Position numbers and translations under genes: made by a program. Under the pieces are notes generated by a model, which was not told the DNA's origin, searched no databases, and saw nothing but the letters and a program-made list of their open reading frames with translations. A stretch of 64,000 nucleotides of DNA, taken from Allorhodopirellula heiligendammensis (GTDB lineage Bacteria > Planctomycetota > Planctomycetia > Pirellulales > Pirellulaceae). The stretch is taken from contig NZ_SJPU01000002.1 in the NCBI RefSeq assembly GCF_007860105.1, positions 2,323,882-2,387,881 on the forward strand, given 5' to 3'. Positions 22,012 to 52,475 of this stretch are shown here, in pieces. Every line of letters starts with the position of its first letter. The first letter of the stretch is position 1.

Positions 22012-22648
22012 CGTTCGATCCTGAAAATGAAGTATGAGCAGTCGATCCATGATCGGACCCACAATCTCGTTTTCGGCACCATCGGGGGGTTCGCAGCAAT
22101 AAAGGCGGAACCGTCGGAGCAATCACCGCAACCCGCACACTCCACCTTTCTTGCCTCCATGCCCATTTACCTCCCTGGGTGCGACGAACCACGGTCGGAT
22201 TCACGGCATCGGTCACACCCACAACCACACGCAATCCACCTGTCGGTCCCGTCGACCAAAATGGAAGCGTCAATTTTTCCGCTCACTCCGAGCGAAACAT
22301 CAAAATGCCCCGTCGAAAGTTCTATTCGTGAATCGGCTGGCGACGCGCCCGCCAGGCTGCTACTCGGAGCGGGGGCGCTCGTACCAAACGTCATCCACGA
22401 GAGCATGTTGTCGTAGCGCTGCCAACAAGCACCCGCATCGGAGCTAGCAATCACTAACTAGGAACATGAAATCGACCGCGATCACGCCGGTAATACGAAG
22501 AACTCATCCAGGCACTGAGATTTGTCAGGAAGGTGAGGGTCGAGGTATTTCTCGCAATGACTTCAGACGAACGCCTCGTGCCAGCGTTACACTAGTGACG
22601 TGCAAATTGCCGGAAATCGATTCCACACCGCGTTCACCAAATTCCAAA
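22012..22648. other. Divergent intergenic region
   Basis: About 640 bp separate the minus-strand outer-membrane protein gene and the plus-strand sulfatase. Short open frames exist on both strands (for example 22167-22454 minus) but show no recognisable domain or ribosome binding site. It probably holds both promoters. I see no clear hairpin or repeat. Confidence 0.5.
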
Positions 22649-24211
22649 ATGACCAAGCATCTTTTTTTTCCCCTCATTCATCGCGGCACTGCTCTCCTCG
22701 CAATTGGCCTGGCCATGGCAGCGGGGAGCGATATCGGCGCTGCGCCACCTCACCCGACCCCGGCCAGCGAGGTGAGCGGTGCTGCTGTAGCGACCGATGG
22801 CCAGCGCCCCAATGTGTTGTTCATTGCCATTGATGACATGAACGATTGGACGGGATTTCTGGGTGGACACCCCCAAGCCCACACGCCCAACATGGACGCG
22901 TTGGCCCGTCGCGGCGTGAACTTCACCAACGCGCACTGCGTTGCCCCGGCATGTTCACCCTGTCGCCTGGGACTGCTCTATGGTGTTGAACCATTTCACT
23001 CGGGGCTATATCCGTTTTATAACCACGACAAGATCCAGCCCTGGATCACTGAGCACTACACGAGCTTACCCAAAACGCTGCGTGACCAAGGCTACCAGAC
23101 ATATGGTGCCGGCAAGATCTTTCACTCCAGCACGCACTACGACATCGACTGGTCGGACTATCACCAGGTCCAGAAAACGAAACTCGTTTACGCACCCGAA
23201 CAGGGATATCAGATCGGAAAGTCCGACAAAATGGCTTTCTGTCCCACTACCAACCCGCTCACCGAGCATCCCGATTATCAAGTTGCCGACTATGGTATTG
23301 AGGTTCTCAGCGACAAGCACGACCAACCATTCTTTCTGGCGGTGGGAATTGTCAAGCCGCACTTGGCGTTCGTATGCCCGGAGCAGTTCTTTGAGATGAT
23401 TGAGCAACCGGTCCAAGCCCCCCTGATTCACAACGGCGATCTGGCCGACGTGCCTTGGGCAGGCCGCTCGATGGCCAATTTAGGAGACGATTTCAAATTC
23501 CGAAACGATGAAGCGTGGCAGCGAGTTCGCCATGCTTACTTGGCCTGCATCACCTGGGCGGACTTCAACATCGGTCGGGTTCTCGATGCGTTGGCTGCCA
23601 GCCCGCACGCTAAAAACACCGTCGTCGTGGTGTGGTCTGACCATGGCTATCATCTCGGTGAAAAACGTAGCTTTCGCAAGTTTTCACTGTGGGAGGAAGC
23701 GACGCGCGTACCGCTTATCATCTACGACCCCCGTCGACATGTCGGTGAACCGGAGAACTGCGTTGAGCCGGTCTCGCTCATTGACCTGTACCGAACGATC
23801 ACCGAACTGGCGGGCGTCGAAGCGCCCCAATACGTTGATGGTGACAGCTTGGTTCCGCAGCTGGACAACCCCTCCGAAGCAATCCCAGAACCAGCAATCA
23901 CAACCTGGGGACGTGGCAACTATAGCCTGCGTGATGGCCGCTACCGCTACACGCGATACTTTGATGGCGGCGAAGAACTATACGACCATCAAACCGATCC
24001 GCAGGAGTGGACGAATCTGGCTGACAACCCTGATCACCAGATCATCAAGCAGCGACTCGCGAAAGCACTCCCACAAAACGAGGCGCCATTAGTTCGCAAC
24101 GGCGTCGCTCTATGGAACGTGATCGACGCCGACCGACCGCAGAAACTAGAGAGCTTCCAACAAAAAACTTGGCCTAGCTTTGTTAAAAAGCTCCGCCCCA
24201 AAATCGAGTAG
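22649..24211 (+). CDS. Sulfatase, iduronate-2-sulfatase-like
   Basis: Starting at the ATG at 22649 gives a signal peptide (MTKHLFFPLI, hydrophobic core, GAAPP); the frame is open from 22466 but that extension is not signal-like. The mature enzyme has the alkaline-phosphatase-fold sulfatase layout: metal ligands in IAIDDMNDWTG, the activation motif C-S-P-C-R followed by LGLLYG, GKIFHSSTHYDIDW, and VVWSDHGYHLGEKRSF near the second metal site. The CxPxR cysteine would be converted to formylglycine by a maturase (family knowledge). It hydrolyses sulfate esters, probably of algal polysaccharides. About 520 residues is usual for the family. The second cysteine in CSPCR replaces the more frequent Ser. 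Confidence 0.93.
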   Translation: MTKHLFFPLIHRGTALLAIGLAMAAGSDIGAAPPHPTPASEVSGAAVATDGQRPNVLFIAIDDMNDWTGFLGGHPQAHTPNMDALARRGVNFTNAHCVAPACSPCRLGLLYGVEPFHSGLYPFYNHDKIQPWITEHYTSLPKTLRDQGYQTYGAGKIFHSSTHYDIDWSDYHQVQKTKLVYAPEQGYQIGKSDKMAFCPTTNPLTEHPDYQVADYGIEVLSDKHDQPFFLAVGIVKPHLAFVCPEQFFEMIEQPVQAPLIHNGDLADVPWAGRSMANLGDDFKFRNDEAWQRVRHAYLACITWADFNIGRVLDALAASPHAKNTVVVVWSDHGYHLGEKRSFRKFSLWEEATRVPLIIYDPRRHVGEPENCVEPVSLIDLYRTITELAGVEAPQYVDGDSLVPQLDNPSEAIPEPAITTWGRGNYSLRDGRYRYTRYFDGGEELYDHQTDPQEWTNLADNPDHQIIKQRLAKALPQNEAPLVRNGVALWNVIDADRPQKLESFQQKTWPSFVKKLRPKIE

Positions 24212-25016: not shown

Positions 25017-25630
25017 AAAATTTCGGGCTCGTTCGAAGGAAGTGTGCGCCGGAGGTTTTCGGGGGATAACTCAAGTATCAATTGATGCTTTGTGTGTGCG
25101 TTGCACTGACAGAAGGCTGGCAGGGCCGTGAGAAACGGCGTCAAGCTCGAATGGCTCGTACTTCGTGAGCCGAGCCCTGTAAGCGGACGGGCTAGCCGTG
25201 TCGCCTGGTGCCTGACGGCACTCGACTCACGTCATTGTCAGCGTGAGCCCACGACATGCGCGTCAAGCTCTGCAGAGGTGTAACTTGACATAGGATATCA
25301 AGGTCGCCCGCTCGTGTTATGCCGGAAAAAAAGCTGCCGTCACCACGAAGTACGCGTCCGTCGGATGGGCCAATTTCAGGGATCTTGATGTCGGTACCGT
25401 TGACATTCCCGCCCCGAAGATGGGCCGAGGGCGGTTTGCGGGTAAATAGGAAGATTAGAGATGGCACGCTAGATGCGTTAGCGTCGGTACATTACCAGCG
25501 GATCGGGGGGTGATTAAGTAATACTTCCGCAATCACCGCCCGTTTGGTCCACGTCAGCAATTCAGAACCCTCTCGTTGTCGTGGCGACGCATCCTTTTTT
25601 TTCTCACTTATCTGCACTCTGGAGCCCCAC
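25017..25630. other. Long spacer before the second giant gene
   Basis: About 610 bp without a convincing gene. A minus-strand frame (25192-25467) has no domain and no ribosome binding site. Near the 3' end is an inverted repeat (25505-25541, listed separately). The region probably contains the promoter and leader of the giant gene starting at 25631. Confidence 0.5.
25505..25541 (+). promoter_or_regulatory. Inverted repeat in the leader of the giant beta-helix gene
   Basis: GGGGGGTGATT (25505-25515) pairs with AATCACCGCCC (25531-25541) at 10 of 11 positions around a 15-nt loop, about 90 bp before the start codon. It could be an operator or an RNA hairpin. No second copy is present. Confidence 0.4.
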
Positions 25631-28600
25631 ATGCTTGGTCTCAAACGACTCACCCTGATCGCCAACCGACCAAAGCAAGGGCACCCCAGCCCCCGAAAAT
25701 CAAGATTAATGTCGCAGAAACGCTCCACAATTCGCCGGTTGCTCGGGGAGCCGCTGGAGGATCGCCGGCTACTAGCTGCCTATGTCGTGGACACCGCTAT
25801 CGACGCGATCGATGCGACTGACGGCGTTGTTAGCCTGCGTGAAGCGGTACAAGCCGCCAATACCAACACCGTCGTCGGCGACGCGGCCGCCGGTGATGCA
25901 GGCGTCACCGATACGATTACATTTGCGGACGGACTTTCGACGATCACTCTCAACAGTCAATTGTCGATAACGGAATCTCTCGGGATCTCCCTCGGTTCCG
26001 CTACAGGCGTGACACTGAGCGGCGGCAACGCATCGCGAATTTTCTCCGTCGATGCAGGTGGAGACCCGGGAGTCCCGACAGGCGTCGCGATCTCCGGGTT
26101 GACTCTGACCGGCGGTACTGCCGAATCGGGCGGCGCGATCTTCGTTTCCGCGGGCCAGTCACTAACGCTTGACGGCGTAACATTGACGGGCAATGTGGCT
26201 ACAGGGAGCGATGTGGGACAGGGTGGAGGAGCAATTTACAATGCGGGTTCACTCAGCATCTCCGCGGGCATCATCAGCGACAACGACGCCAATGGGACGT
26301 CCGGTAGCGGTGGCGGCATCCTTAATATGGCTGGGACGCTTGATGTCAGTGGAACGATAATCTCGGCCAACACGGCCAATCGGGCCGGCGGTGGGATCGA
26401 AACGGCAGGTGGCAGCGTCACGCTGACCAATGTAACCCTGGGCAGCGATGGCGATGGGACGGATGACGAGACCGAAGGCAACTCGGTTGCTGAAAATGCT
26501 GCACCAGGTAATGGCGGGGGCTTGCACATCGGCGGCGATGGGACCGTCGCCGTAACAGGCGGTAGCGTGCGTGGTAACTCGGCCGTCGAAGGCGGTGGAT
26601 TGTGGAATTCCGGGGCCGGCACACTGACCATTGACGGCACCACCATCGCCGATAATACCGCCGTTCGTGGAGGTGGTGTTTATCAAGACGAAGCATCAAC
26701 CACGCAGACCTTCACGGTCGATCTACAAACACTCAACTCTGCCTACGGCTCCACCGCAACCGGAACCGCCACGATCACGCTCGATACCTCAGGCGTGACG
26801 GGACCCAATAGCGGCACCGCCAGCATCCGAGTCCAGATCGATGCCAGCGGTCTACCCGACTTAACGGAGGTCAGTGGTGGTATCCATGTCGCCCACATCC
26901 ACGGCCAATTCGCGGGCAACGCCCAGCGACCCTCCGCTGAGCAGGGCGACGGTCCGTTCTTTGATGGCGAAGGCGGAGCCGCGAATGGGTTCGCGCCGAG
27001 TGACTCGATCACCCCAACGACCGAGGACGATGGGGCCAAGAACATTGACGAGTCCGCTCAATTCGGCCAGCCCACCGACTTCTTAGACTTCTTTGAGGGA
27101 CGGCCTGATTACGGTCCGGTCGTGCTAAACCTCTCTGCCAACCAACTCGCAGCTGCCCCCGATGGCACACCGCCACTGACCTTCTTCTTTCAGCAACTCG
27201 CCGCTGGCAACATCAACCCAGCTGACGAATTCCCCGTCGGCACGACATTCAATCGCGATACGACCTACACCTTTGACCTCAGTGATGCCGATCAACGCCG
27301 CCAGTACAACAACCTCGCGCCGTTAGAAACCCGTGAGATTGTGCTGCACGGCTTGGTCATTCCCAAGGATATTTCCGACGCGATCGATGCAGCCACCGGC
27401 GCGGCGCCCGGTACCCCCACTGCCGGCGTCGACCAGGGTGACGGCACTTCGTTCCGTCGCACCGCACCGATCGCCGCGGGCACGATCGCACGCGTCTCAG
27501 GCATCACAACCATTGCCAACGCCACCATCAGCGGCAATACGGCAACGGGCGACATGGCCACCGATGGCGGTGGTGGAGTTTACAACGCCGGTGGAGTGCT
27601 CGGTATTAGCGGATCGACGATCACCGCCAACGCTGCCAATGGCACTGCCGGTAGCGGAGGCGGGGTCTTCAGCGCCGATGGTCAGACAACGATCAGCTCA
27701 ACGGCCATCGGCGGCCCGACCGCCGCATCGGGAAACACCGCTAACCGCGCCGGTGGCGGGATCGAAGTCGTCGAGGGAAATGTATCGATCGAAGGTGCCA
27801 GCAGTCTTGCGAACAACTTCGCGGGTATCAACGGTGGGGGTGTGCATATCACCGGCGCAGCCACGGTGGATTCGGCTCAATCCACCTATACCAATAACAC
27901 CGCGGCGAGTGAGGGCGGTGGGCTTTGGAACTCCGCCACGGGAACCATCAATATCGATGGTGGAATTATCTCCGGGAACACTGCCAGCGGCGACGCAGCG
28001 GACAACGGTGGCGGCGGGATCTATAACGACGGTGGTTTGATCACAGCCTTCGGTGGAGTGATCAGTGACAATGTGGCCGATGGCACCAGCGGTAGCGGGG
28101 GCGGTGTGCTGAACAACGGCGGCACACTGACGATCGACGACGGCACCAGCATCTCGGGTAACCGGGCGAATCGGGCCGGCGGCGGCATCGAGACAGCTGG
28201 CGGTAGCGTCACCCTCGACAACACCAACCTCACCGGAAACACGGTCAATACCGAAGGTGCCACTGGCAACCCCGGTAACGGTGGCGGGCTGCATATCGGT
28301 GGTGACGGCGTGGTCGTGATCAACGGCGGCGAGGTGACCGGCAACTCAGCCGTCGAAGGCGGTGGGTTGTGGAACTCCGGGGCCGGCACGCTGACAATTG
28401 ATGGCACCACGATCGCCGATAATACTGCGGTTCGTGGCGGTGGTGTTTATCAAGATGAAACGTCCACGACCCAGACCTTCACGGTGGATCTACAAACGCT
28501 CAATTCGGCATACGGCTCAACGGCGACCGGCACCGCCACGATCACGCTCGATACCTCAGGCGTGACAGGACCCAATAGCGGCACTGCCAGTATCCGCGTC

Positions 28601-31600
28601 CAGATCGATGCCAGCGGTTTGCAAGACTTAACCACGACCACGGGCGGGATCCACGTCGCTCATATCCACGGCCAGTTCACGGGCAATGCAGCCCGTCCGA
28701 TGGCCGATCAAGGCGATGGTCCCTTCTTCGATGGTGAAGGTGGTCAAACCGCGGACTCGGTACTGCCCACGACCGACGACGATGGCGCGTTGAACATCGA
28801 TGAATCAGCAGACTTTGGGCAAGCGACCGACTTCCTCGACTTTTTTGAGGGCCGCCCTGATTACGGACCAGTCGTCCTGAATCTGACCAATGAGCAGCTC
28901 GCATCGGCTCCCGATGGCACCCCGCCATTAACGTTTTTCTTCCAGCAACTCGCTGCTGGGAATATTCCCTCGGACGCGTTCCCCAACGGTACGTCCTTCA
29001 ATCGAGACACGACGTACACATTTGATTTAAGTGACCCCGATGCCCGGCGCCAGTACCACAATTTGACTCCGCTGGAATCACGGGAGATCGTACTACACGG
29101 ATTGACAGTGCCCACGAACATCAGTGATGCAATTGATGCTGCAACTGGAGCGACTCCGGGCAGCCCCACGGCGGGCGTGCCGTTGGATAACGGCATGTCA
29201 TTCCGCCGCACCGCGCCGGTTGCAGCGGGAGAGATCGTACGCACGTCGGGCACAACTTCCATCACGGGAGCTACGATCACTGGCAATATCGCCACCGGTG
29301 GCAATCCGGATGAAGGCGGCGGCGGGGCTTTTAATGCTGGTTCCATGACCGTGGACAATTCGAGCATCTTCAACAACCTGGCCACGGGAGAACGTGGCAG
29401 TGGTGGTGGAATTCTGAACGTCAATCAAGGCGTGCTCGACGTCAGCGGAACGGCGATCACGGACAACGCGGCATTGGGCTCGATGATGGGCGACGGCGGG
29501 GGCGGGATCCTGAACATCGACGGCACAGTCTCGGTGACCGGTTCGACGATCAGTGATAACGACGCCACGGGCACCTCAGGCAGTGGCGGTGGCATCCTAT
29601 CGCGTGCGGGAACCCTAACGGTCTCCGATACAACGATCAGCGGCAACGTCGCCAACCGGGCGGGCGGTGGAATCGAAGTGGGTCGCGCGACGGTGATGCT
29701 CAATGAGGTTGTACTGGGCGGCGCGTCGGCGACAGAGGGGAACTCGGTAAGTGGCACGGGAGCGAATCCAGGAAACGGTGGCGGATTGCATGTGACGTTC
29801 GATTCCACGGTGACGATCCAGGGCGGCAGTGTTCTCAACAACTCAGCTGTTGAGGGCGGTGGTCTATGGAACTCCAGTACCGGCACACTCACTGTCACTG
29901 ACGCAACCATTTCGGGCAACACCGCCGGCGGTGACGCAGCTGACAACGGGGGCGGAGGCATCTACAACGACGGCGGAACGACTTCTGTCGTCGGTGGTAT
30001 CATTAGCAACAACGTCGCCGATGGCACTAGCGGCAGCGGAGGCGGTGTGCTGAACAACGGCGGCACGCTGACGATTGGCAACGGCACCATCATCTCAGGT
30101 AACCGAGCGAATCGGGCCGGGGGCGGCATCGAGACCGCTGGCGGCAGCGTCACTCTCGACAACACCAACCTCACCGGTAACACGGTCAATACCGAAGGTG
30201 CCACTGGCAACCCCGGTAACGGTGGCGGGCTGCATATCGGTGGTAACGGCATGGTCGTGATCAACGGCGGCGAGGTGACCGGCAACTCGGCCGTCGAAGG
30301 CGGTGGGTTGTGGAACTCGGGGGCCGGCACGCTGACAATTGATGGCACCACGATCGCCGATAATACCGCCGTTCGTGGAGGTGGTGTTTATCAAGACGAA
30401 GCATCAACCACGCAGACCTTCACGGTCGATCTACAAACACTCAACTCTGCCTACGGCTCCACCGCAACCGGAACCGCCACGATCACGCTCGATACCTCAG
30501 GCGTGACGGGACCCAATAGCGGCACTGCCAGCATCCGAGTCCAGATCGATGCCAGCGGTCTACCCGACCTAACGGAGGTCAGTGGTGGTATCCATGTCGC
30601 CCACATCCACGGCCAATTCGCGGGCAACGCCCAGCGACCCTCCGCTGAGCAGGGCGACGGTCCGTTCTTTGATGGCGAAGGCGGAGCCGCGAATGGGTTC
30701 GCGCCGAGTGACTCGATCACCCCAACGACCGAGGACGATGGGGCCAAGAACATTGACGAGTCCGCTCAATTCGGCCAGCCCACCGACTTCTTAGACTTCT
30801 TTGAGGGACGGCCTGATTACGGTCCGGTCGTGCTAAACCTCTCTGCCAACCAACTCGCAGCTGCCCCCGATGGCACACCGCCACTGACCTTCTTCTTTCA
30901 GCAACTCGCCGCTGGCAACATCAACCCAGCTGACGAATTCCCCGTCGGCACGACATTCAATCGCGATACGACCTACACCTTTGACCTCAGTGATGCCGAT
31001 CAACGCCGCCAGTACAACAACCTCGCGCCGCTGGAAACCCGTGAAATTGTGCTGCACGGCTTGGTCATTCCCAAGGATATTTCCGACGCGATCGATGCAG
31101 CCACCGGCGCGGCGCCCGGTACCCCCACTGCCGGCGTCGACCAGGGTGACGGCACTTCGTTCCGTCGCACCGCACCGATCGCCGCGGGCACGATCGCACG
31201 CGTCTCAGGCATCACAACCATTGCCAACGCCACCATCAGCGGCAATACGGCAACGGGCGACATGGCCACCGATGGCGGTGGTGGAGTTTACAACGCCGGT
31301 GGAGTGCTCGGTATTAGCGGATCGACGATCACCGCCAACGCTGCCAATGGCACTGCCGGTAGCGGAGGCGGGGTCTTCAGCGCCGATGGTCAGACAACGA
31401 TCAGCTCAACGGCCATCGGCGGCCCGACCGCCGCATCGGGAAACACCGCTAACCGCGCCGGTGGCGGGATCGAAGTCGTCGAGGGAAATGTATCGATCGA
31501 AGGTGCCAGCAGTCTTGCGAACAACTTCGCGGGTATCAACGGTGGGGGTGTGCATATCACCGGCGCAGCCACGGTGGATTCGGCTCAATCCACCTATACC

Positions 31601-34600
31601 AATAACACCGCGGCGAGTGAGGGCGGTGGGCTTTGGAACTCCGCCACGGGAACCATCAATATCGATGGTGGAATTATCTCCGGGAACACTGCCAGCGGCG
31701 ACGCAGCGGACAACGGTGGCGGCGGGATCTATAACGACGGTGGTTTGATCACAGCCTTCGGTGGAGTGATCAGTGACAATGTGGCCGATGGCACCAGCGG
31801 TAGCGGGGGCGGTGTGCTGAACAACGGCGGCACACTGACGATCGACGACGGCACCAGCATCTCGGGTAACCGGGCGAATCGGGCCGGCGGCGGCATCGAG
31901 ACAGCTGGCGGTAGCGTCACCCTCGACAACACCAACCTCACCGGAAACACGGTCAATACCGAAGGTGCCACTGGCAACCCCGGTAACGGCGGCGGGCTGC
32001 ATATCGGTGGTGACGGCGTGGTCGTGATCAACGGCGGCGAGGTGACCGGCAACTCAGCCGTCGAAGGCGGTGGGTTGTGGAACTCGGGGGCCGGCACACT
32101 GACTGTTAATGACGTGACGATTTCGGGCAACACCGCCAGCGGTGACGCAGCTGACAACGGTGGCGGCGGCATCTACAACGATGGGGGAACAACCTCAGTC
32201 TTCGGCGGCGTGATCAGTGACAATGTGGCCGATGGCACCAGCGGTAGCGGGGGCGGTGTGCTGAACAACGGCGGCACGCTGACGATCGACAACGGCACCA
32301 GCATCTCGGGTAACCGGGCGAATCGGGCCGGCGGCGGCATCGAGACAGCCGGCGGTAGCGTGATGCTCAATAACCTTCGCATCGTCAACAACACCGTCAG
32401 CGCTGGCGGAGCGGTCGCCAACCCCGGCAACGGTGGTGGGCTGCATATCGGCGGCGACGCCGAAGTCACGATTTTCGGCAGCACGATCCTTGGCAACTCT
32501 GCCGTAGAGGGCGGCGGATTATGGAACGGTCCCGCCAGTGAACTCACCGTCGACGCCTCCACCATTGCCGGAAACACGTCAGACGATGGGGGTGGCGTGT
32601 ACAACTCGGGAACGAGTGGTGACATCACCCTGATCAACTCGACAATTTCAGGAAACACCGCGACGGGCGACGGCGGTGGAATTGCCAGCGAGGGTGCGAA
32701 CGTGACATTGTTGAATGTCACGATCGCTACGAACTCTGCAGCCAACGGCGGCGGTGTCCAATCCGATGCCGGCACCGTCTCGGCGATCAACACGATTATC
32801 GCGTCCAATACCGCGACCTCGGCTCCGGACGTCGCTGGCACACTGATGAGTAACGGGAACAACCTGATCGGCGACACGACCGACACAAATTTGGTCGGTG
32901 CCGCGGCGTCGGATATTCTGGACGTTGACGCTGGACTGGCGGCGCTCGCCGACAACGGCGGCCCCACGCAAACGATCGCCTTGTTGGCCAGCAGTCCAGC
33001 ACTCAATGCAGGCGTGGCAACGGGAGTGCCAGTAGATCAGCGCGGCATAGCTCGCCCACAGGGCGCTGGCATCGATATTGGTGCCTTTGAATCCGACTTA
33101 AACCCGATAGCCACACCGGAACTTGCGATTGCTGCCGCCAACGCGGATCGAAATGAAGGTAACTCCGGACTGACCCCGTTCACCTTCACTGTTACCCGCA
33201 GCGGCACGACCACGGGAACAACCAGCGTGAGCTATACCGTCAGCGGCAGTGGTACCAACGTAGCCGACGGCAATGATTTTCAAAACGGTGGTTTCCCCAG
33301 CGGCACGGTCAACTTTGCCGACGGAGAAACAGCGAAAACCATTACCGTCAACGTAGCTGGCGACGGTGACTTTGAATCCGATGAGACGTTTACCGTCACG
33401 CTGGGCAACGCCACCGGTGGTGCCACCGTGACGACAGACGAAGCAACGGGGACGATTCGCAATGACGATGCCGTCGTTGTCCCCACGCTGTCGATCGCCG
33501 CAGCCAACGCCGATCGATTGGAAGGCAACTCGGGTGCAACGCCGTTTACCTTTACGGTCACACGCGGCGGTGACACATCCGCTGCGACAACGGTCCAATA
33601 CACCATTGCGGGATCGGGAGCGAATCCCACCAATGCCAACGACTTTGCCAGCGGCTTCCCCTCGGGCACGATCAGCTTCGCGGCGGGCGAGACAACTCAG
33701 ACACTCACGATTGGTGTGTCGGGCGATACGTTTGCCGAACAGGACGAGACATTCACAGTGACGTTAAGCAACGCGACAGGTGGGGCTTCCATCACGAGTG
33801 ACGAGGCTTCAGGCGTGATTCGAAATGATGACCGCTTGGGTGGTGACACCCGCATTCTGACACCGCCCCAAGTTGTGCGGCCGCATGTGATCCCAGGCGA
33901 CGGAATCCCCACTGCCATCATCTTCCAAGCAGTCACTGACGCTACCGTCACTGTCTTTCCCGTCGGAGTCGCGTCGTTTACCGAAAACGTCTACATCGTC
34001 GACGGTAACACGCAGCAGATCAGCCAGTACGTTAACGGCGTCACCACGGCCCAGGTGACCGCTGGCAACCTGTACTCCGTCATTTTTGAGCCGCAATCGG
34101 AAGATCGAATCTTCTCCATTCGCTCATCCGCCGGATCCGATTCGTTATCCAACGAACCGTCGACTAACATCCTACAGCCAACCGATACCACGGCCGACGG
34201 AAAAACGACCGCTCTGGATGCATTGCGAATCGTCAATGCGCTCAATCAACGCGACGCAGCAGGCGGCGAGCCATTGCCTGACACCGCGGCATCGAATGCG
34301 TTTCTGGACGTCAATCGCGACAATTCCGTGACGGCGCTGGACGCACTGATTGTGATTAATTTTCTCAATCGCCAAGACGCGAGCCTGGCGGGGAATCCGG
34401 CGGGTGAAAGTTTTGCGGCTGCTCCTCAGCAGGCTGGCCGGGTCGCGTCGGCAACACCCATCAGTCATGCGGACGATGCCGCTATCGATCAGGTATTCGC
34501 GGCCGACACCGCGCAGCCAAATTGGCTAGCGAGCGACCCTTCAGCGGATCTCGCTGCAGACGCTGGCGCCACGATGACTGCCGCCAATGTCGACGTGGCA

Positions 34601-34672
34601 CTGGATTCCGATTCTGACGATGACGAGCTTGAGCTATTCGCGGATTCACGCCTGCTGGCAGGCATCAACTGA
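25631..34672 (+). CDS. Giant secreted beta-helix protein with three CHRD-like domains, Calx-beta and dockerin
   Basis: The ATG at 25631 follows TGGAG 6 bp upstream and gives about 3013 residues. EPLEDRRLLA lies near residue 40. Most of the protein is Pmp/beta-helix repeats with GGGI(Y/E) and GNTA-type turns (for example ANRAGGGIETAGGSV). Three CHRD-like domains of about 220 residues, each with GGIHVAHIHGQF, interrupt the helix at about 357-577, 947-1163 and 1593-1813. Two Calx-beta domains follow (about 2496-2612 and 2618-2735, each ending TGTIRNDD or SGVIRNDD), then a dockerin-type pair (DGKTTALDALRIVNALN, DNSVTALDALIVINFLN) at about 2847-2920. Residues encoded by 26645-28377 are duplicated almost exactly at 30353-32085. 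It is probably an exported surface or matrix protein; there is no catalytic motif. Confidence 0.88.
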   Translation: MLGLKRLTLIANRPKQGHPSPRKSRLMSQKRSTIRRLLGEPLEDRRLLAAYVVDTAIDAIDATDGVVSLREAVQAANTNTVVGDAAAGDAGVTDTITFADGLSTITLNSQLSITESLGISLGSATGVTLSGGNASRIFSVDAGGDPGVPTGVAISGLTLTGGTAESGGAIFVSAGQSLTLDGVTLTGNVATGSDVGQGGGAIYNAGSLSISAGIISDNDANGTSGSGGGILNMAGTLDVSGTIISANTANRAGGGIETAGGSVTLTNVTLGSDGDGTDDETEGNSVAENAAPGNGGGLHIGGDGTVAVTGGSVRGNSAVEGGGLWNSGAGTLTIDGTTIADNTAVRGGGVYQDEASTTQTFTVDLQTLNSAYGSTATGTATITLDTSGVTGPNSGTASIRVQIDASGLPDLTEVSGGIHVAHIHGQFAGNAQRPSAEQGDGPFFDGEGGAANGFAPSDSITPTTEDDGAKNIDESAQFGQPTDFLDFFEGRPDYGPVVLNLSANQLAAAPDGTPPLTFFFQQLAAGNINPADEFPVGTTFNRDTTYTFDLSDADQRRQYNNLAPLETREIVLHGLVIPKDISDAIDAATGAAPGTPTAGVDQGDGTSFRRTAPIAAGTIARVSGITTIANATISGNTATGDMATDGGGGVYNAGGVLGISGSTITANAANGTAGSGGGVFSADGQTTISSTAIGGPTAASGNTANRAGGGIEVVEGNVSIEGASSLANNFAGINGGGVHITGAATVDSAQSTYTNNTAASEGGGLWNSATGTINIDGGIISGNTASGDAADNGGGGIYNDGGLITAFGGVISDNVADGTSGSGGGVLNNGGTLTIDDGTSISGNRANRAGGGIETAGGSVTLDNTNLTGNTVNTEGATGNPGNGGGLHIGGDGVVVINGGEVTGNSAVEGGGLWNSGAGTLTIDGTTIADNTAVRGGGVYQDETSTTQTFTVDLQTLNSAYGSTATGTATITLDTSGVTGPNSGTASIRVQIDASGLQDLTTTTGGIHVAHIHGQFTGNAARPMADQGDGPFFDGEGGQTADSVLPTTDDDGALNIDESADFGQATDFLDFFEGRPDYGPVVLNLTNEQLASAPDGTPPLTFFFQQLAAGNIPSDAFPNGTSFNRDTTYTFDLSDPDARRQYHNLTPLESREIVLHGLTVPTNISDAIDAATGATPGSPTAGVPLDNGMSFRRTAPVAAGEIVRTSGTTSITGATITGNIATGGNPDEGGGGAFNAGSMTVDNSSIFNNLATGERGSGGGILNVNQGVLDVSGTAITDNAALGSMMGDGGGGILNIDGTVSVTGSTISDNDATGTSGSGGGILSRAGTLTVSDTTISGNVANRAGGGIEVGRATVMLNEVVLGGASATEGNSVSGTGANPGNGGGLHVTFDSTVTIQGGSVLNNSAVEGGGLWNSSTGTLTVTDATISGNTAGGDAADNGGGGIYNDGGTTSVVGGIISNNVADGTSGSGGGVLNNGGTLTIGNGTIISGNRANRAGGGIETAGGSVTLDNTNLTGNTVNTEGATGNPGNGGGLHIGGNGMVVINGGEVTGNSAVEGGGLWNSGAGTLTIDGTTIADNTAVRGGGVYQDEASTTQTFTVDLQTLNSAYGSTATGTATITLDTSGVTGPNSGTASIRVQIDASGLPDLTEVSGGIHVAHIHGQFAGNAQRPSAEQGDGPFFDGEGGAANGFAPSDSITPTTEDDGAKNIDESAQFGQPTDFLDFFEGRPDYGPVVLNLSANQLAAAPDGTPPLTFFFQQLAAGNINPADEFPVGTTFNRDTTYTFDLSDADQRRQYNNLAPLETREIVLHGLVIPKDISDAIDAATGAAPGTPTAGVDQGDGTSFRRTAPIAAGTIARVSGITTIANATISGNTATGDMATDGGGGVYNAGGVLGISGSTITANAANGTAGSGGGVFSADGQTTISSTAIGGPTAASGNTANRAGGGIEVVEGNVSIEGASSLANNFAGINGGGVHITGAATVDSAQSTYTNNTAASEGGGLWNSATGTINIDGGIISGNTASGDAADNGGGGIYNDGGLITAFGGVISDNVADGTSGSGGGVLNNGGTLTIDDGTSISGNRANRAGGGIETAGGSVTLDNTNLTGNTVNTEGATGNPGNGGGLHIGGDGVVVINGGEVTGNSAVEGGGLWNSGAGTLTVNDVTISGNTASGDAADNGGGGIYNDGGTTSVFGGVISDNVADGTSGSGGGVLNNGGTLTIDNGTSISGNRANRAGGGIETAGGSVMLNNLRIVNNTVSAGGAVANPGNGGGLHIGGDAEVTIFGSTILGNSAVEGGGLWNGPASELTVDASTIAGNTSDDGGGVYNSGTSGDITLINSTISGNTATGDGGGIASEGANVTLLNVTIATNSAANGGGVQSDAGTVSAINTIIASNTATSAPDVAGTLMSNGNNLIGDTTDTNLVGAAASDILDVDAGLAALADNGGPTQTIALLASSPALNAGVATGVPVDQRGIARPQGAGIDIGAFESDLNPIATPELAIAAANADRNEGNSGLTPFTFTVTRSGTTTGTTSVSYTVSGSGTNVADGNDFQNGGFPSGTVNFADGETAKTITVNVAGDGDFESDETFTVTLGNATGGATVTTDEATGTIRNDDAVVVPTLSIAAANADRLEGNSGATPFTFTVTRGGDTSAATTVQYTIAGSGANPTNANDFASGFPSGTISFAAGETTQTLTIGVSGDTFAEQDETFTVTLSNATGGASITSDEASGVIRNDDRLGGDTRILTPPQVVRPHVIPGDGIPTAIIFQAVTDATVTVFPVGVASFTENVYIVDGNTQQISQYVNGVTTAQVTAGNLYSVIFEPQSEDRIFSIRSSAGSDSLSNEPSTNILQPTDTTADGKTTALDALRIVNALNQRDAAGGEPLPDTAASNAFLDVNRDNSVTALDALIVINFLNRQDASLAGNPAGESFAAAPQQAGRVASATPISHADDAAIDQVFAADTAQPNWLASDPSADLAADAGATMTAANVDVALDSDSDDDELELFADSRLLAGIN
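26645..28377 (+). repeat. Copy 1 of a 1.73 kb near-identical intragenic duplication
   Basis: This block is repeated at an offset of exactly 3708 bp (1236 codons). By eye I find about six substitutions, for example near 26816, 26860, 27322-27337 and 28281. It covers one CHRD domain plus the following Pmp repeats. Similarity drops abruptly just outside the block on both sides. Confidence 0.9.
30353..32085 (+). repeat. Copy 2 of the 1.73 kb near-identical intragenic duplication
   Basis: Copy of 26645-28377 in the same gene and frame. The pair is far more alike than the third CHRD unit (about 28440-29200), so this is a recent duplication or gene conversion rather than ancient domain repetition. 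Confidence 0.9.
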
Positions 34673-49172: not shown

Positions 49173-52100
49173 CTAAGAGTCGTTTCGCAACTCCGGTCGA
49201 GGCAGTCGCCCGTACGCATGGGCGAGCAGTTTCAATGGATGCACGGCGGTATAATCGCCCCCGTGCTCCATTTGCAGCTTGCATGCGCTGCACTCAGTTG
49301 ACGGCGCCGCATCAGCCACCTTGCGAACGGCAGAAATCATCGGCCACCCGATTCGCAAACTATTGCGAAAATTCTTTCGATGCAGCCCCCAGGTGCCCGC
49401 CATCCCGCTGCACCCCTTGCCGACCACATCAACTTGGATCCCGGGGATCAGCCGCATCAGACTCGCCGCCGTCGGCTCGCGATCGAGCACCCGGCTGTGA
49501 CAGGGCTGGTGATAGACGATGCGATGATCTATCGGCGAAAATTCGAGTTCGAGACGATCTTCCTCATGCAACGACCACAGGTACTGACAGGCCTCATGAG
49601 AGTGCCGGGCGACCAGGTGAGCGTCTTCACTATCGAGCAAATTGGGATATTCGTGCTGGAGGCATAATGCCGCCGCCGGCTCGCTGGCCAAGACCGTGTA
49701 ACCCTGCCGCACGGCGTCTGCGAGCACGCGGACGTTCCGCCGTGCTACCCGGCGTGCGCCTTTGAGGTCTCCCGCCGTGATCCGTCCCATGCCACTGAGG
49801 CCCTGACCGACGGGCACGTAGAACCCAATGCGGTTGTGCTGCAATATTTCCGCCAACGCGCGTCCGATTTCAGGATCGTGATAGTTTGCGTAGTGGTCGA
49901 CAAAATACACGACTTTCAGACCGCCGTGCGGTGACGCCTTGTGCCAGCGGCGACGGATTGCGTACCGCAGGAAGGTTTCACTCACCAAAGGCGGGATGTC
50001 GCGGGCCGCTGACAAACCGAACAGGTTCTCGCCGAGCCACCGCATCGAACGCCGGCGCAGCAGAAAGTTGGACAACCAGGCCACCCGCGACGCCACAGAC
50101 GCAACCACATCGATGCGGCTGATCAGCCAATCGGATAACGCCAATCCATTGGTAGCAACATACTGCGCTTTGATTTCGCCGACGATTTTGGGAATATTTA
50201 CCGAAGCGGGGCAATCGATGCGGCAGGAGTGACAATTGAAACACAGATCGGCGACCGCCTTCGCACGCTCGCCGGTCAACTCATTCACCCCCAGCTCACC
50301 ACTGAGGACTCCCCGCAGCAAATTCGCTTTCGCGCGAGGCGATGCCTCTTCGGTCGCCGTGATGCGAAACATCGGGCATTGCCGCTCGTCAGCGCTGTGC
50401 GAGCGGCACCGCCCGCAACCGTTACAGGCGCGGGTCGTCGTCGTGATCGGCGCGGTACCCGACCACTGCTGCAACACCTCGAGCTGCGGCGGCGGTTCGT
50501 GCGGCATCAAAGAGTTCACCAACTTCGATGCCGCGGACTCCACCAAACGTGTTTCAGCCATTGCCGCGGGTGCCGATGCCCCGTCGTCAACGCCCGTGCC
50601 CTGACCAGCGGCCCTGCCCTGACCAGCGGCCCTGGCCTGACCAGCGGCCCTGGCCTGAGTAGCGGCCCTGGCGTGAGCAGCGGCCGCGCCCTGACCAGCG
50701 GCCGAACGGGTGTCGCCGGCGGGATCGGCAGACGTCGCACGGGAATGCTCACGTATCGCCAGTGCGATCTTCTCGTCAGGGGCGATCAGGGGCTCGCCTT
50801 CGTCGGACCGGCGTCGCGGCAGGACACTCCGACCCGACTCCACGATCTCGATCGTATGATTGAACGGCCGCAGGTTATCGTCGGGTTTTTGTAGAACCGC
50901 CCCAAATAGCTTCCCGCCATTGAACCGGTGTTGCGGGTCAAAGAGTCGTTTCACTTGGCCCATCGCCGGCCATAAGTCACCAAGCTGAGTCGGCATCAGA
51001 TAGGACCGGCTGAGTCCCGCCGCATGCTCCACGCCAATTTGCCCACCCATTCGCCAAACCACTTCGGCGATCGCTTCACTGAGCGGGTGAACGCGATCTC
51101 GATCCTCTGAATTTGCCAGATCCAGCATGGGGCGAATGTGCAATTGCCCGTGTCCTGCATGGGCAAATACGGTCGCCGTCACGTGGTGCCGCTTGAGCAC
51201 ATCTTGGACGGCAAACAGCATTTCGGGAAGCCGCTCCGGAGGGGCGTAGATATCTTCGACAAACGGCAGCGGCATGGCCTGGCCGCGCACTCGATACTGA
51301 CGCTGAATCACCCGCCGAAATAGAATCCAGAACAAGTCTCGCTGTTCATTTTGGACGGTATCCTGCGATGTGAACGCAGCATCGGGACCGCTGGCGAGCG
51401 TTTTTCGGAGGATGCCCAAGCGGTGATAGAGATCCCCGAGCGACTCGCCTTGGATTTCAACCAACATCCCTGCCTCAGCTTCGCGGGGAACGAGATCCGC
51501 AAAACGTCTCTCTCCCTCTCGAGCAATCTGCAACAACCGGCGATCCATCACGTCACAGGCGATCGGTCCGTGGTCGAGGGCCATCACGGCTGCCCGCATG
51601 GCTGAATCCAGGCGGCGGAAGAATAACAGCACCACGCCGCGATGCGCCGGGATCAATTCGGTACGGAGCGTGGCATCGACCATCACCGCCAGCGTACCTT
51701 GGGTGCCCGCATAAAATTTTGCTAGATCGACCACCCCAGCAGCGTCGACAACATCGTCGATCCGATAGCCATTGCTCGCCGGTGAGCGAAACGGACTGGT
51801 TTGCAGCTGCGTGCGGAACTGGTTTTGAATCTCACTCAGGCCACTGGCTACCCGATTTCGAAAGCCCACACCACCCTCATCGCCAGCGGCGCTCGATGGC
51901 GGCAAGTAATCATCGGGGGCGTGCTGGGAAAGTTCCACCAATTCGCCCTGGGCATTGATCACACGTACCGATTCGATCGTGTCCCGTGCCGAGCCGCTGC
52001 GTAGATAATGGCTGCCCGATGCGTTGGTCGCGATGACGCCGCCCATCGTATTGATCGCACGGGTTGCGGGGTCGGGTCCGTACCACCGCCCCGCATGAGC

Positions 52101-52475
52101 GAGCAATCGATTGACGCTCGCCAGCGTCGCACCACTCTGAACGGTGATCCGGGTAGCGTCCTCTTGCAGCGCCACCCGCCGCAAATGGCATGACATATCC
52201 AGGACGATTCCTGGACCGAGGGATTCCCCCGCCACACCACTGCCGCTGCCCCGGGGGTGGATGGTCAAACCGTGATCACGGGCGTAAATCACCGTGGCCG
52301 AGATATCTGCCGCCGATCGTGGACGGACCACTCCCATCGGCCGAATCTGATAGATGCTGGCGTCGGAGGCGTAGAGCTGCAGCGAAACGTCATCGCACAA
52401 AACCTCCCCATCGACTAAGCCGCGGAGGTCGTCGTGCAATCGTTGGCGGTCGAGATCAGTGCGCATCAACGCCAT
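49173..52475 (-). CDS. Giant FAD-linked oxidase / Fe-S oxidoreductase fusion (GlcD-GlcF/D-lactate dehydrogenase type)
   Basis: The 1100-residue protein fuses modules that are often separate. Residues ~45-190 are an FAD-binding (PCMH) domain (IHPRGSGSGVAGESLGPG; GRWYGPDPATRAINTMGG). Residues ~210-540 are the FAD-linked oxidase C-terminal domain (FAHAGHGQLHIRPML). A low-complexity Ala/Gly/Gln/Arg linker spans ~560-640. Residues ~675-760 carry two ferredoxin-like clusters (C-N-G-C-G-R-C ... and C-F-N-C-H-S-C-RIDCP). Residues ~830-1085 hold CCG-type cysteine motifs (YHQPCHSRVL, GKGCSGMAGTWG, TECSACKLQ). Such fusions oxidise 2-hydroxy acids (lactate, glycolate) and pass electrons to quinone (family knowledge); the substrate here is unknown. 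The linker is encoded by six 18-bp tandem units. Confidence 0.9.
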   Translation of the reverse strand: MALMRTDLDRQRLHDDLRGLVDGEVLCDDVSLQLYASDASIYQIRPMGVVRPRSAADISATVIYARDHGLTIHPRGSGSGVAGESLGPGIVLDMSCHLRRVALQEDATRITVQSGATLASVNRLLAHAGRWYGPDPATRAINTMGGVIATNASGSHYLRSGSARDTIESVRVINAQGELVELSQHAPDDYLPPSSAAGDEGGVGFRNRVASGLSEIQNQFRTQLQTSPFRSPASNGYRIDDVVDAAGVVDLAKFYAGTQGTLAVMVDATLRTELIPAHRGVVLLFFRRLDSAMRAAVMALDHGPIACDVMDRRLLQIAREGERRFADLVPREAEAGMLVEIQGESLGDLYHRLGILRKTLASGPDAAFTSQDTVQNEQRDLFWILFRRVIQRQYRVRGQAMPLPFVEDIYAPPERLPEMLFAVQDVLKRHHVTATVFAHAGHGQLHIRPMLDLANSEDRDRVHPLSEAIAEVVWRMGGQIGVEHAAGLSRSYLMPTQLGDLWPAMGQVKRLFDPQHRFNGGKLFGAVLQKPDDNLRPFNHTIEIVESGRSVLPRRRSDEGEPLIAPDEKIALAIREHSRATSADPAGDTRSAAGQGAAAAHARAATQARAAGQARAAGQGRAAGQGTGVDDGASAPAAMAETRLVESAASKLVNSLMPHEPPPQLEVLQQWSGTAPITTTTRACNGCGRCRSHSADERQCPMFRITATEEASPRAKANLLRGVLSGELGVNELTGERAKAVADLCFNCHSCRIDCPASVNIPKIVGEIKAQYVATNGLALSDWLISRIDVVASVASRVAWLSNFLLRRRSMRWLGENLFGLSAARDIPPLVSETFLRYAIRRRWHKASPHGGLKVVYFVDHYANYHDPEIGRALAEILQHNRIGFYVPVGQGLSGMGRITAGDLKGARRVARRNVRVLADAVRQGYTVLASEPAAALCLQHEYPNLLDSEDAHLVARHSHEACQYLWSLHEEDRLELEFSPIDHRIVYHQPCHSRVLDREPTAASLMRLIPGIQVDVVGKGCSGMAGTWGLHRKNFRNSLRIGWPMISAVRKVADAAPSTECSACKLQMEHGGDYTAVHPLKLLAHAYGRLPRPELRNDS
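50601..50708 (-). repeat. Six 18-bp tandem units (VNTR-like) in the oxidoreductase linker
   Basis: Six consecutive 18-bp units related to CTGACCAGCGGCCCTGCC span 50601-50708. They encode a hexapeptide repeat of the ARAAGQ type in the 1100-residue oxidoreductase. Units differ by one to several bases. The length is in frame, so copy-number change would only alter linker length. Confidence 0.85.

Follow-up and report, generated by a model that had tools for sequence, protein, structure and literature searches.

Introduction

Periscope proteins are long surface-type proteins with repeats of high identity, and in the part of their account that bears on repeat number, variation is proposed to come about by intragenic recombination (PMC8201768). 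Very long genes are also described from planctomycetes, where the relevant text on R. baltica names the giant gene RB11769 (PMC2754498). CHRD domains, in the pertinent section on the human ones, have superoxide dismutase (SOD)-like folds and bind sulfated glycosaminoglycans (PMC13382577). Here we describe a giant gene of Allorhodopirellula heiligendammensis that touches on all three. It lies in a stretch of 64,000 nucleotides, which we call the window (assembly GCF_007860105.1, contig NZ_SJPU01000002.1, positions 2,323,882 to 2,387,881 of the forward strand), and it contains two copies of a 1.7 kb block that are nearly identical. The explanation that we consider probable is that this is a modular gene in which internal recombination has repeatedly evened out the copies and changed the length.

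Near-identical blocks in the giant gene

The center of the gene is an array of beta-helix-like modules of ~148 amino acids (aa) that start with GGGLWN, and three of these have a long insert resembling the CHRD domain. The corresponding units are called A, B, and C, and coordinates are collected in Table 1. A preliminary description of this DNA had pointed to two blocks of 1.73 kb in A and C, 3708 bp apart with about six differences, and those figures turn out to be exact: each copy is 1733 bp, the offset is 3708 bp, and there are 6 differences, at 26818, 26861, 27323, 27325, 27337, and 28282. All six are synonymous and are found in five codons, such that the same protein stretch is encoded by both copies. 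Site counting, with 447.7 silent and 1283.3 replacement sites, gives 6 silent and 0 replacement changes, which is a silent divergence (dS) of 0.0135 and a replacement divergence (dN) of 0. Six silent out of six has a probability of 0.0003 under random placement with these site counts, and of 0.0045 once the changes are restricted to transitions and counted as five independent events. Chance does not explain a match over 1.7 kb such as this. The same description suggested a recent duplication or ongoing gene conversion inside this one gene, and recent homogenisation agrees with the values for A and C as compared with a dS of about 1.9, near saturation, for the C-terminal part of the gene against G006, the nearest relative found.

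Identity at the offset of 3708, taken without gaps, declines leftward in 100-bp windows from 26601, 26501, and 26401 as 94, 68, and 39%, and rightward in those from 28301 and 28401 as 95 and 35%. Immediately beyond the left edge there are seven more differences (26599, 26608, 26611, 26623, 26629, 26635, and 26644), likewise silent, and both block edges are inside homologous module sequence. When block A is used as a DNA query against the 7,177,699-bp genome it comes from, with 40 of 49 candidates scored, there are 7 matches at E ≤ 0.001, all within the giant gene.

Unit B, which separates A and C, matches A unevenly. Identity is 87 to 89% over alignment columns 1-200, 66 to 81% over columns 201-900 (through the CHRD part), 53 to 60% over columns 901-1500 except for one 23-base window at 74%, 73 to 75% over columns 1501-1700, and 90 to 97% over the last 262 columns. 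The characterization of B as much more diverged is therefore right for the CHRD and middle parts, and wrong for the ends of the unit (87 to 97%). Exchange acting on the ends would leave this pattern of high identity there and low identity in the middle.

The process we have in mind would operate as follows. Beta-helix modules, some with the CHRD/SOD-like insert, would be similar enough as DNA for homologous recombination between copies, presumably by RecA-type machinery. Gene conversion would overwrite tracts of a module with the sequence of another module, by which near-identity would be kept, and unequal exchange would gain and lose whole in-frame units. Purifying selection would hold the protein sequence, leaving differences between copies mostly silent. 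A and C are proposed to be the most recent product of such self-recombination in this species.

For the A and C pair taken by itself, conversion is unneeded if A was copied downstream of B in a single recent duplication, for instance by unequal crossing-over to A-B-A-B with subsequent loss of the second B. The dS of 0.0135, the in-frame offset, and the location of the block edges, in module sequence that is homologous and where one would place a crossover, are all in keeping with that, as are a CHRD copy number of 0 to 3 between species and a tree in which the three CHRD copies of this genome (G000) stand apart from those of G006, G005, and G004 with support of 92. What argues the other way is that G006 has a two-unit layout with the same downstream order, compatible with an older pair being homogenised independently, and that G009 compared with G002 has an identical tract at an unchanged layout, as described below. 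We regard the single duplication as quite possible, short of probable. Conversion of two older units, as the similar two-unit layout in G006 suggests, may be somewhat more likely as the origin of A and C, by a margin that does not decide between the two. Since the unit number differs between species, gain and loss happen too.

Relatives of the gene in the genus

We searched for the unit in 80 genomes, G000 included. Matches at E ≤ 1 × 10−20 are found in 17 of them, including all 13 of the genus in the set, and the CHRD insert is present in 8 of those 13 at E ≤ 1 × 10−10. Open frames were extracted from 11 genus genomes, with one genome per species. G003 and G012 have weaker matches and were left out of the gene comparison, with their genes not extracted, and the module counts also leave out G007, where the gene is cut at contig ends, and G008, where a 5572-aa open stretch has no CHRD match. 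The CHRD-type copies per gene number 3 in G000, 2 in G006, 3 in G005, 2 in G004, and 1 each in G002, G009, G010, and G011; among the 11 genomes compared, none was found in G001, the G007 fragments, or the G008 frame. The gene of G001 (L044), which is without the long insert, has in the N-terminal part of its helix region what by eye could be a shorter version of the CHRD sequence.

The upstream sulfatase of this genome (77% protein identity) and the downstream open reading frames (ORFs; 89 and 98%) are present in G006 as well, which places the two genes at the same locus, and the two units in G006 are followed by the same order of unit, module, and C-terminus. An AI-2E-type transporter was rejected as a synteny marker; its relatives at 35 to 37% precede the gene in G005, G004, G011, and G002, and here it is downstream.

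In 7 of the 11 genomes this gene contains internal copies that are ≥90% identical in 150-bp windows, and near-identical runs of 946 to 2889 bp are present in 6 of the 11. The offsets of the runs are 3708, 2211, 1731, 4710, 3420, and 2973, all multiples of 3. Identity is 98.1% over 2889 bp in G006 and 99.7% over 1733 bp here; the near-identical copies are adjacent in G005, and G002 has only patches of up to 233 bp. CHRD modules within a genome are 98.7% (G000), 99.5% (G006), and 97.8% (G005) identical, versus 73.8% between G000 and G006 and 88% between G005 and G004. The within-genome pairs have dS values of 0.0135 (G000), 0.038 (G006), 0.096 (G005), 0.046 (G009), 0.147 (G011), 0.267 (G004), and 0.555 (G002), as compared with 1.91 for the C-terminal part between G000 and G006 and 0.74 between G009 and G002.

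One might ask whether these duplicates are donor cassettes that diversify a surface protein by programmed antigenic or phase variation, given a modular surface-type gene that recombines between its repeats. The outcome, however, is homogenising, and the differences are silent: there are 0 of 6 replacement changes here, and the other six pairs have dN of only 0.0016 to 0.032 at dS of 0.038 to 0.555. The single own-genome DNA search at E ≤ 0.001 also had no match outside the gene. We give this reading next to no weight.

An assembly artefact, with one copy being a misplaced duplicate of the other, has in its favor that a 1.73 kb repeat is longer than short reads, that the assembly is a draft of 35 contigs, and that the G007 gene is broken at contig ends. 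Yet A and C differ at six sites, their flanks differ on both sides, the frame is kept, and similar copies are found in single-contig genomes (G004 with 92.0% over 946 bp, and G002 with its patches). We hold an artefact to be very improbable. Even so, to call the repeat an assembly hazard was reasonable, with weak evidence from the break in G007, which falls in the CHRD-bearing module. That gene (L046 and L047) is split across two contig ends, with a fragment ending just inside the start of the CHRD insert.

Probable conversion in an old pair of modules

G004, G002, G009, G005, and G011 have the same pair of modules flanking the CHRD region on both sides, which makes them useful for separating conversion from duplication. 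For the first module (m1), the two copies within a genome are 93% (G004), 89% (G002), 100% (G009), 85% (G005), and 97% (G011) identical; for the second, the values are 79, 69, 74, 83, and 95% in the same order. In the second module, the distal copy of G004 groups with the distal copy of G002 (86%, versus the 79 and 69% within genomes), and from this the duplication is older than the split of G004 and G002. In a tree of the ten m1 copies the grouping does not follow position, and imposing position clades costs 285.6 units of log-likelihood, rejected by the approximately unbiased test with p = 1.2 × 10−88.

The clearest tract is in G009, which has the same offset of 2973 and the same module order as G002. 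Where the G002 pair has 9 to 16 scattered differences per 100 bp, the G009 pair matches perfectly for 644 bp between flanks that are homologous yet diverged. The run takes up 244 consecutive variable sites of 362 variable columns, a length reached in 0 of 5000 permutations. We read this as probable gene conversion of an old pair without change in length. Gene conversion had been suggested as ongoing from the A and C blocks, and the relatives lend that backing through the G009 tract and the m1 pairs; the scope for copy-number variation suggested at the same time is realized as the 0 to 3 CHRD copies per gene. In both respects the comparison is between species.

The best matches of plain modules are divided. 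All of those in G000 (4/4), G006 (6/6), and G011 (7/7), 17 of 17, are most similar to another module of the same genome.

Several results weigh against repeated homogenisation as a general account. Over all genomes, a minority of plain modules (22 of 50) are closest to another from the same genome, the remaining genomes contributing 5 of 33 (G005 1/9, G004 2/8, G002 0/6, G009 2/5, G010 0/2, and G001 0/3), so that many modules behave as ordinary orthologues. There are no near-identical internal copies in G001, G010, both G007 fragments, or the G008 ORF. Only G009 has a clear conversion tract; the run in G011 is marginal (permutation p = 0.034, uncorrected), and the permutation tests give no tract in G004 (p = 0.20), G002 (p = 0.26), or G005 (p = 0.18). 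The flanks of the G009 gene have only short, weak matches to G002 and G004 (≤51 aa, 65 to 72%) and none to G005 or G011, and because of the weak matches its orthology depends on sequence and module order. Finally, a fresh duplication fits the A and C pair equally well. Some genomes show strong homogenisation, and in others it is local.

Outside these genomes, three further planctomycete homologues (L063, L066, and L068) have no internal copies at ≥85%. In the gene of G002 (L043), aa 401-550 are 91 to 95% identical to G009 and 84 to 90% to G004, and the C-terminal part is 93.5% identical between G002 and G004, a pattern that looks like recombination between species.

The CHRD-like insert

The insert scores 15.9 and 11.6 bits against the Pfam CHRD family PF07452, which is under the gathering cut-off of 24.1, so it was not accepted as a member on that basis. 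AlphaFold models a 601-aa stretch (mean predicted local distance difference test [pLDDT] score 85.4) with short, regular beta-solenoid strands on both sides of a domain with longer strands, and a model of the insert only has mean pLDDT 84.6. The best structural alignment of the latter is to Cu,Zn SODs, with Z = 8.8 and a root mean square deviation of 2.4 over 112 residues, and every one of the 50 entries listed is an SOD or the copper chaperone of SOD, with Z from 7.9 to 8.8; this is a re-alignment of Foldseek's own candidates, and the middling Z speaks to the fold level only. Foldseek by itself is weak for the insert, with a best E = 0.025. For the 601-aa model, the fold search has 42 matches, none at E ≤ 0.001 and the best at E = 0.007, with SODs mixed with beta-helix and other entries. 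A sequence search of solved structures with the unit had 0 matches at E ≤ 1, and with the CHRD profile 2 matches, E = 0.76 and 1.6, which we take as chance. The chordin CHRD entry of PMC13382577 is not among the matches listed in the fold searches, an absence that is uninformative. Our reading of the models is that the insert would be an SOD-like barrel mounted on the beta-helix.

An HxxHxH motif and a further histidine are invariant in 13 aligned insert sequences (H64, H67, H69, and H218). These four are reminiscent of the copper ligands of SOD. A loop of the form D-x-N/D-x-D-G is found in the inserts of several relatives and is altered in the copies of this genome; its form is that of a putative calcium-binding loop.

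The same long insert is found in cyanobacteria (L061, L062, L064, and L065) with 50 to 56% identity, outside any GGGLWN array. In L064 and L065 it stands alone with, by eye, a PEP-CTERM-like tail, and in L061 and L062 another domain comes after it. These occurrences suggest a mobile domain. The CHRD/SOD-like insert, common to this array and to cyanobacterial proteins, may have a binding or metal-dependent function, a candidate role that is open to testing.

Layout of the gene and its surroundings

The ORF spans 25544-34672 with a mechanical start at TTG 25544. The order of parts is a planctomycete extracellular N-terminus, the helix modules with CHRD inserts, a choice-of-anchor Q domain, two Calx-beta stretches, and a dockerin I domain, from which a secreted or surface protein is plausible. 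A reasonable guess is a surface or matrix protein, possibly for adhesion, with several identical glycan- or metal-binding domains. In the more speculative binding-rod reading given below, which we hold to be rather unlikely, sulfated algal polysaccharides come up as a candidate ligand from the adjacent sulfatase together with the sulfated-glycan binding of human CHRD domains. Elsewhere in the window, 50592-50703 is an 18-bp tandem repeat with 6.2 copies, inside the stretch covered by a 1100-aa ORF on the minus strand (49173-52475).

Table 1. Features of the giant gene and its upstream neighbor, in window positions.
Feature	Position	Strand	Basis
Sulfatase (Sulfatase + SGSH_C), directly upstream of the giant gene, conserved in G006	22466..24211	+	Domain search, neighbor comparison
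Giant gene, about 3013 aa	25631..34672	+	ATG probable, picked by N-terminus comparison with relatives
Planctomycete extracellular motif PF07595	25733..25780	+	20.5 bits, under curated cut-off of 25.5
Copy A of near-identical block, made up of a CHRD module, a helix part, and one plain module of ~148 aa	26645..28377	+	6/1733 mismatches, all synonymous
CHRD-like (SOD-like) insert, copy A	26702..27511	+	PF07452 15.9 bits; structure model
Unit B, between A and C; diverged middle, ends 87-97% identical to A	28370..30310 (about)	+	Aligned identity per 100 columns
CHRD-like insert, copy B	28469..29257	+	82% protein identity to copy A
Copy C of near-identical block	30353..32085	+	Direct comparison with A
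CHRD-like insert, copy C, identical to copy A at the protein level	30410..31219	+	Sequence comparison
Last plain 148-aa module (m7), ahead of C-terminal part	32066..32509	+	Module split
Choice-of-anchor Q domain	32927..33094	+	76.6 bits
Calx-beta domain, best of two stretches	33179..33469	+	66.3 bits for whole protein
Dockerin type I domain	34181..34369	+	45.9 bits

Comparison with known systems

In the open-access literature searched, we found no paper on a CHRD domain in Planctomycetes, on concerted evolution together with gene conversion in bacterial intragenic repeats or adhesin repeat domains, or on duplication of internal repeats in planctomycete beta-helix proteins. Conversion and the gain or loss of units are usually hard to separate in repeat proteins of bacteria, and the paired modules found genus-wide help with that. 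They suggest that identical internal copies may be maintained instead of being just recent. There is also a warning in this for planctomycete giant genes, which are possibly mis-assembled, and for trees made from their repeats, which can mislead. The more speculative reading, rather unlikely as noted, is a self-renewing multivalent binding rod, with SOD-fold (CHRD) loops on a beta-helix, where conversion would keep the domains identical and unequal exchange would tune their number. If that were true, avidity for a repeating surface polymer would evolve quickly with the binding site staying fixed.

Compared with the CHRD domain of PF07452 and that of human chordin, the insert resembles the known structures in its SOD-like fold, as modeled against Cu,Zn SODs, and differs in being ~270 aa with extra loops. 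The gene is like the giant genes of R. baltica in being a very long planctomycete gene, RB11769 being another gene, and the relevant text of that account has nothing on internal conversion (PMC2754498).

The closest comparison is with Periscope proteins, which share the long surface-type protein, with a surface location that is predicted here, and repeats of high DNA identity. The repeats here are compound units of helix and CHRD rather than a simple tandem stalk, and the near-identical copies are separated by the diverged unit B, unlike in G005. Where a Periscope stalk is made of tandem folded domains, there is here a module array of predicted solenoid strands with an inserted domain. Periscope proteins have an N-terminal ligand-binding domain and a C-terminal anchor. 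No N-terminal ligand domain was recognized among the Pfam and NCBIfam matches of the giant protein, the C-terminus of which carries a dockerin. Repeat number in Periscope proteins is proposed to vary by the intragenic route cited above, and the variation seen here is between species only. The present gene is thus of a known, Periscope-like type of process, for which we claim no unpublished phenomenon; its apparent self-recombination would be an ordinary process in an unusually clear instance.

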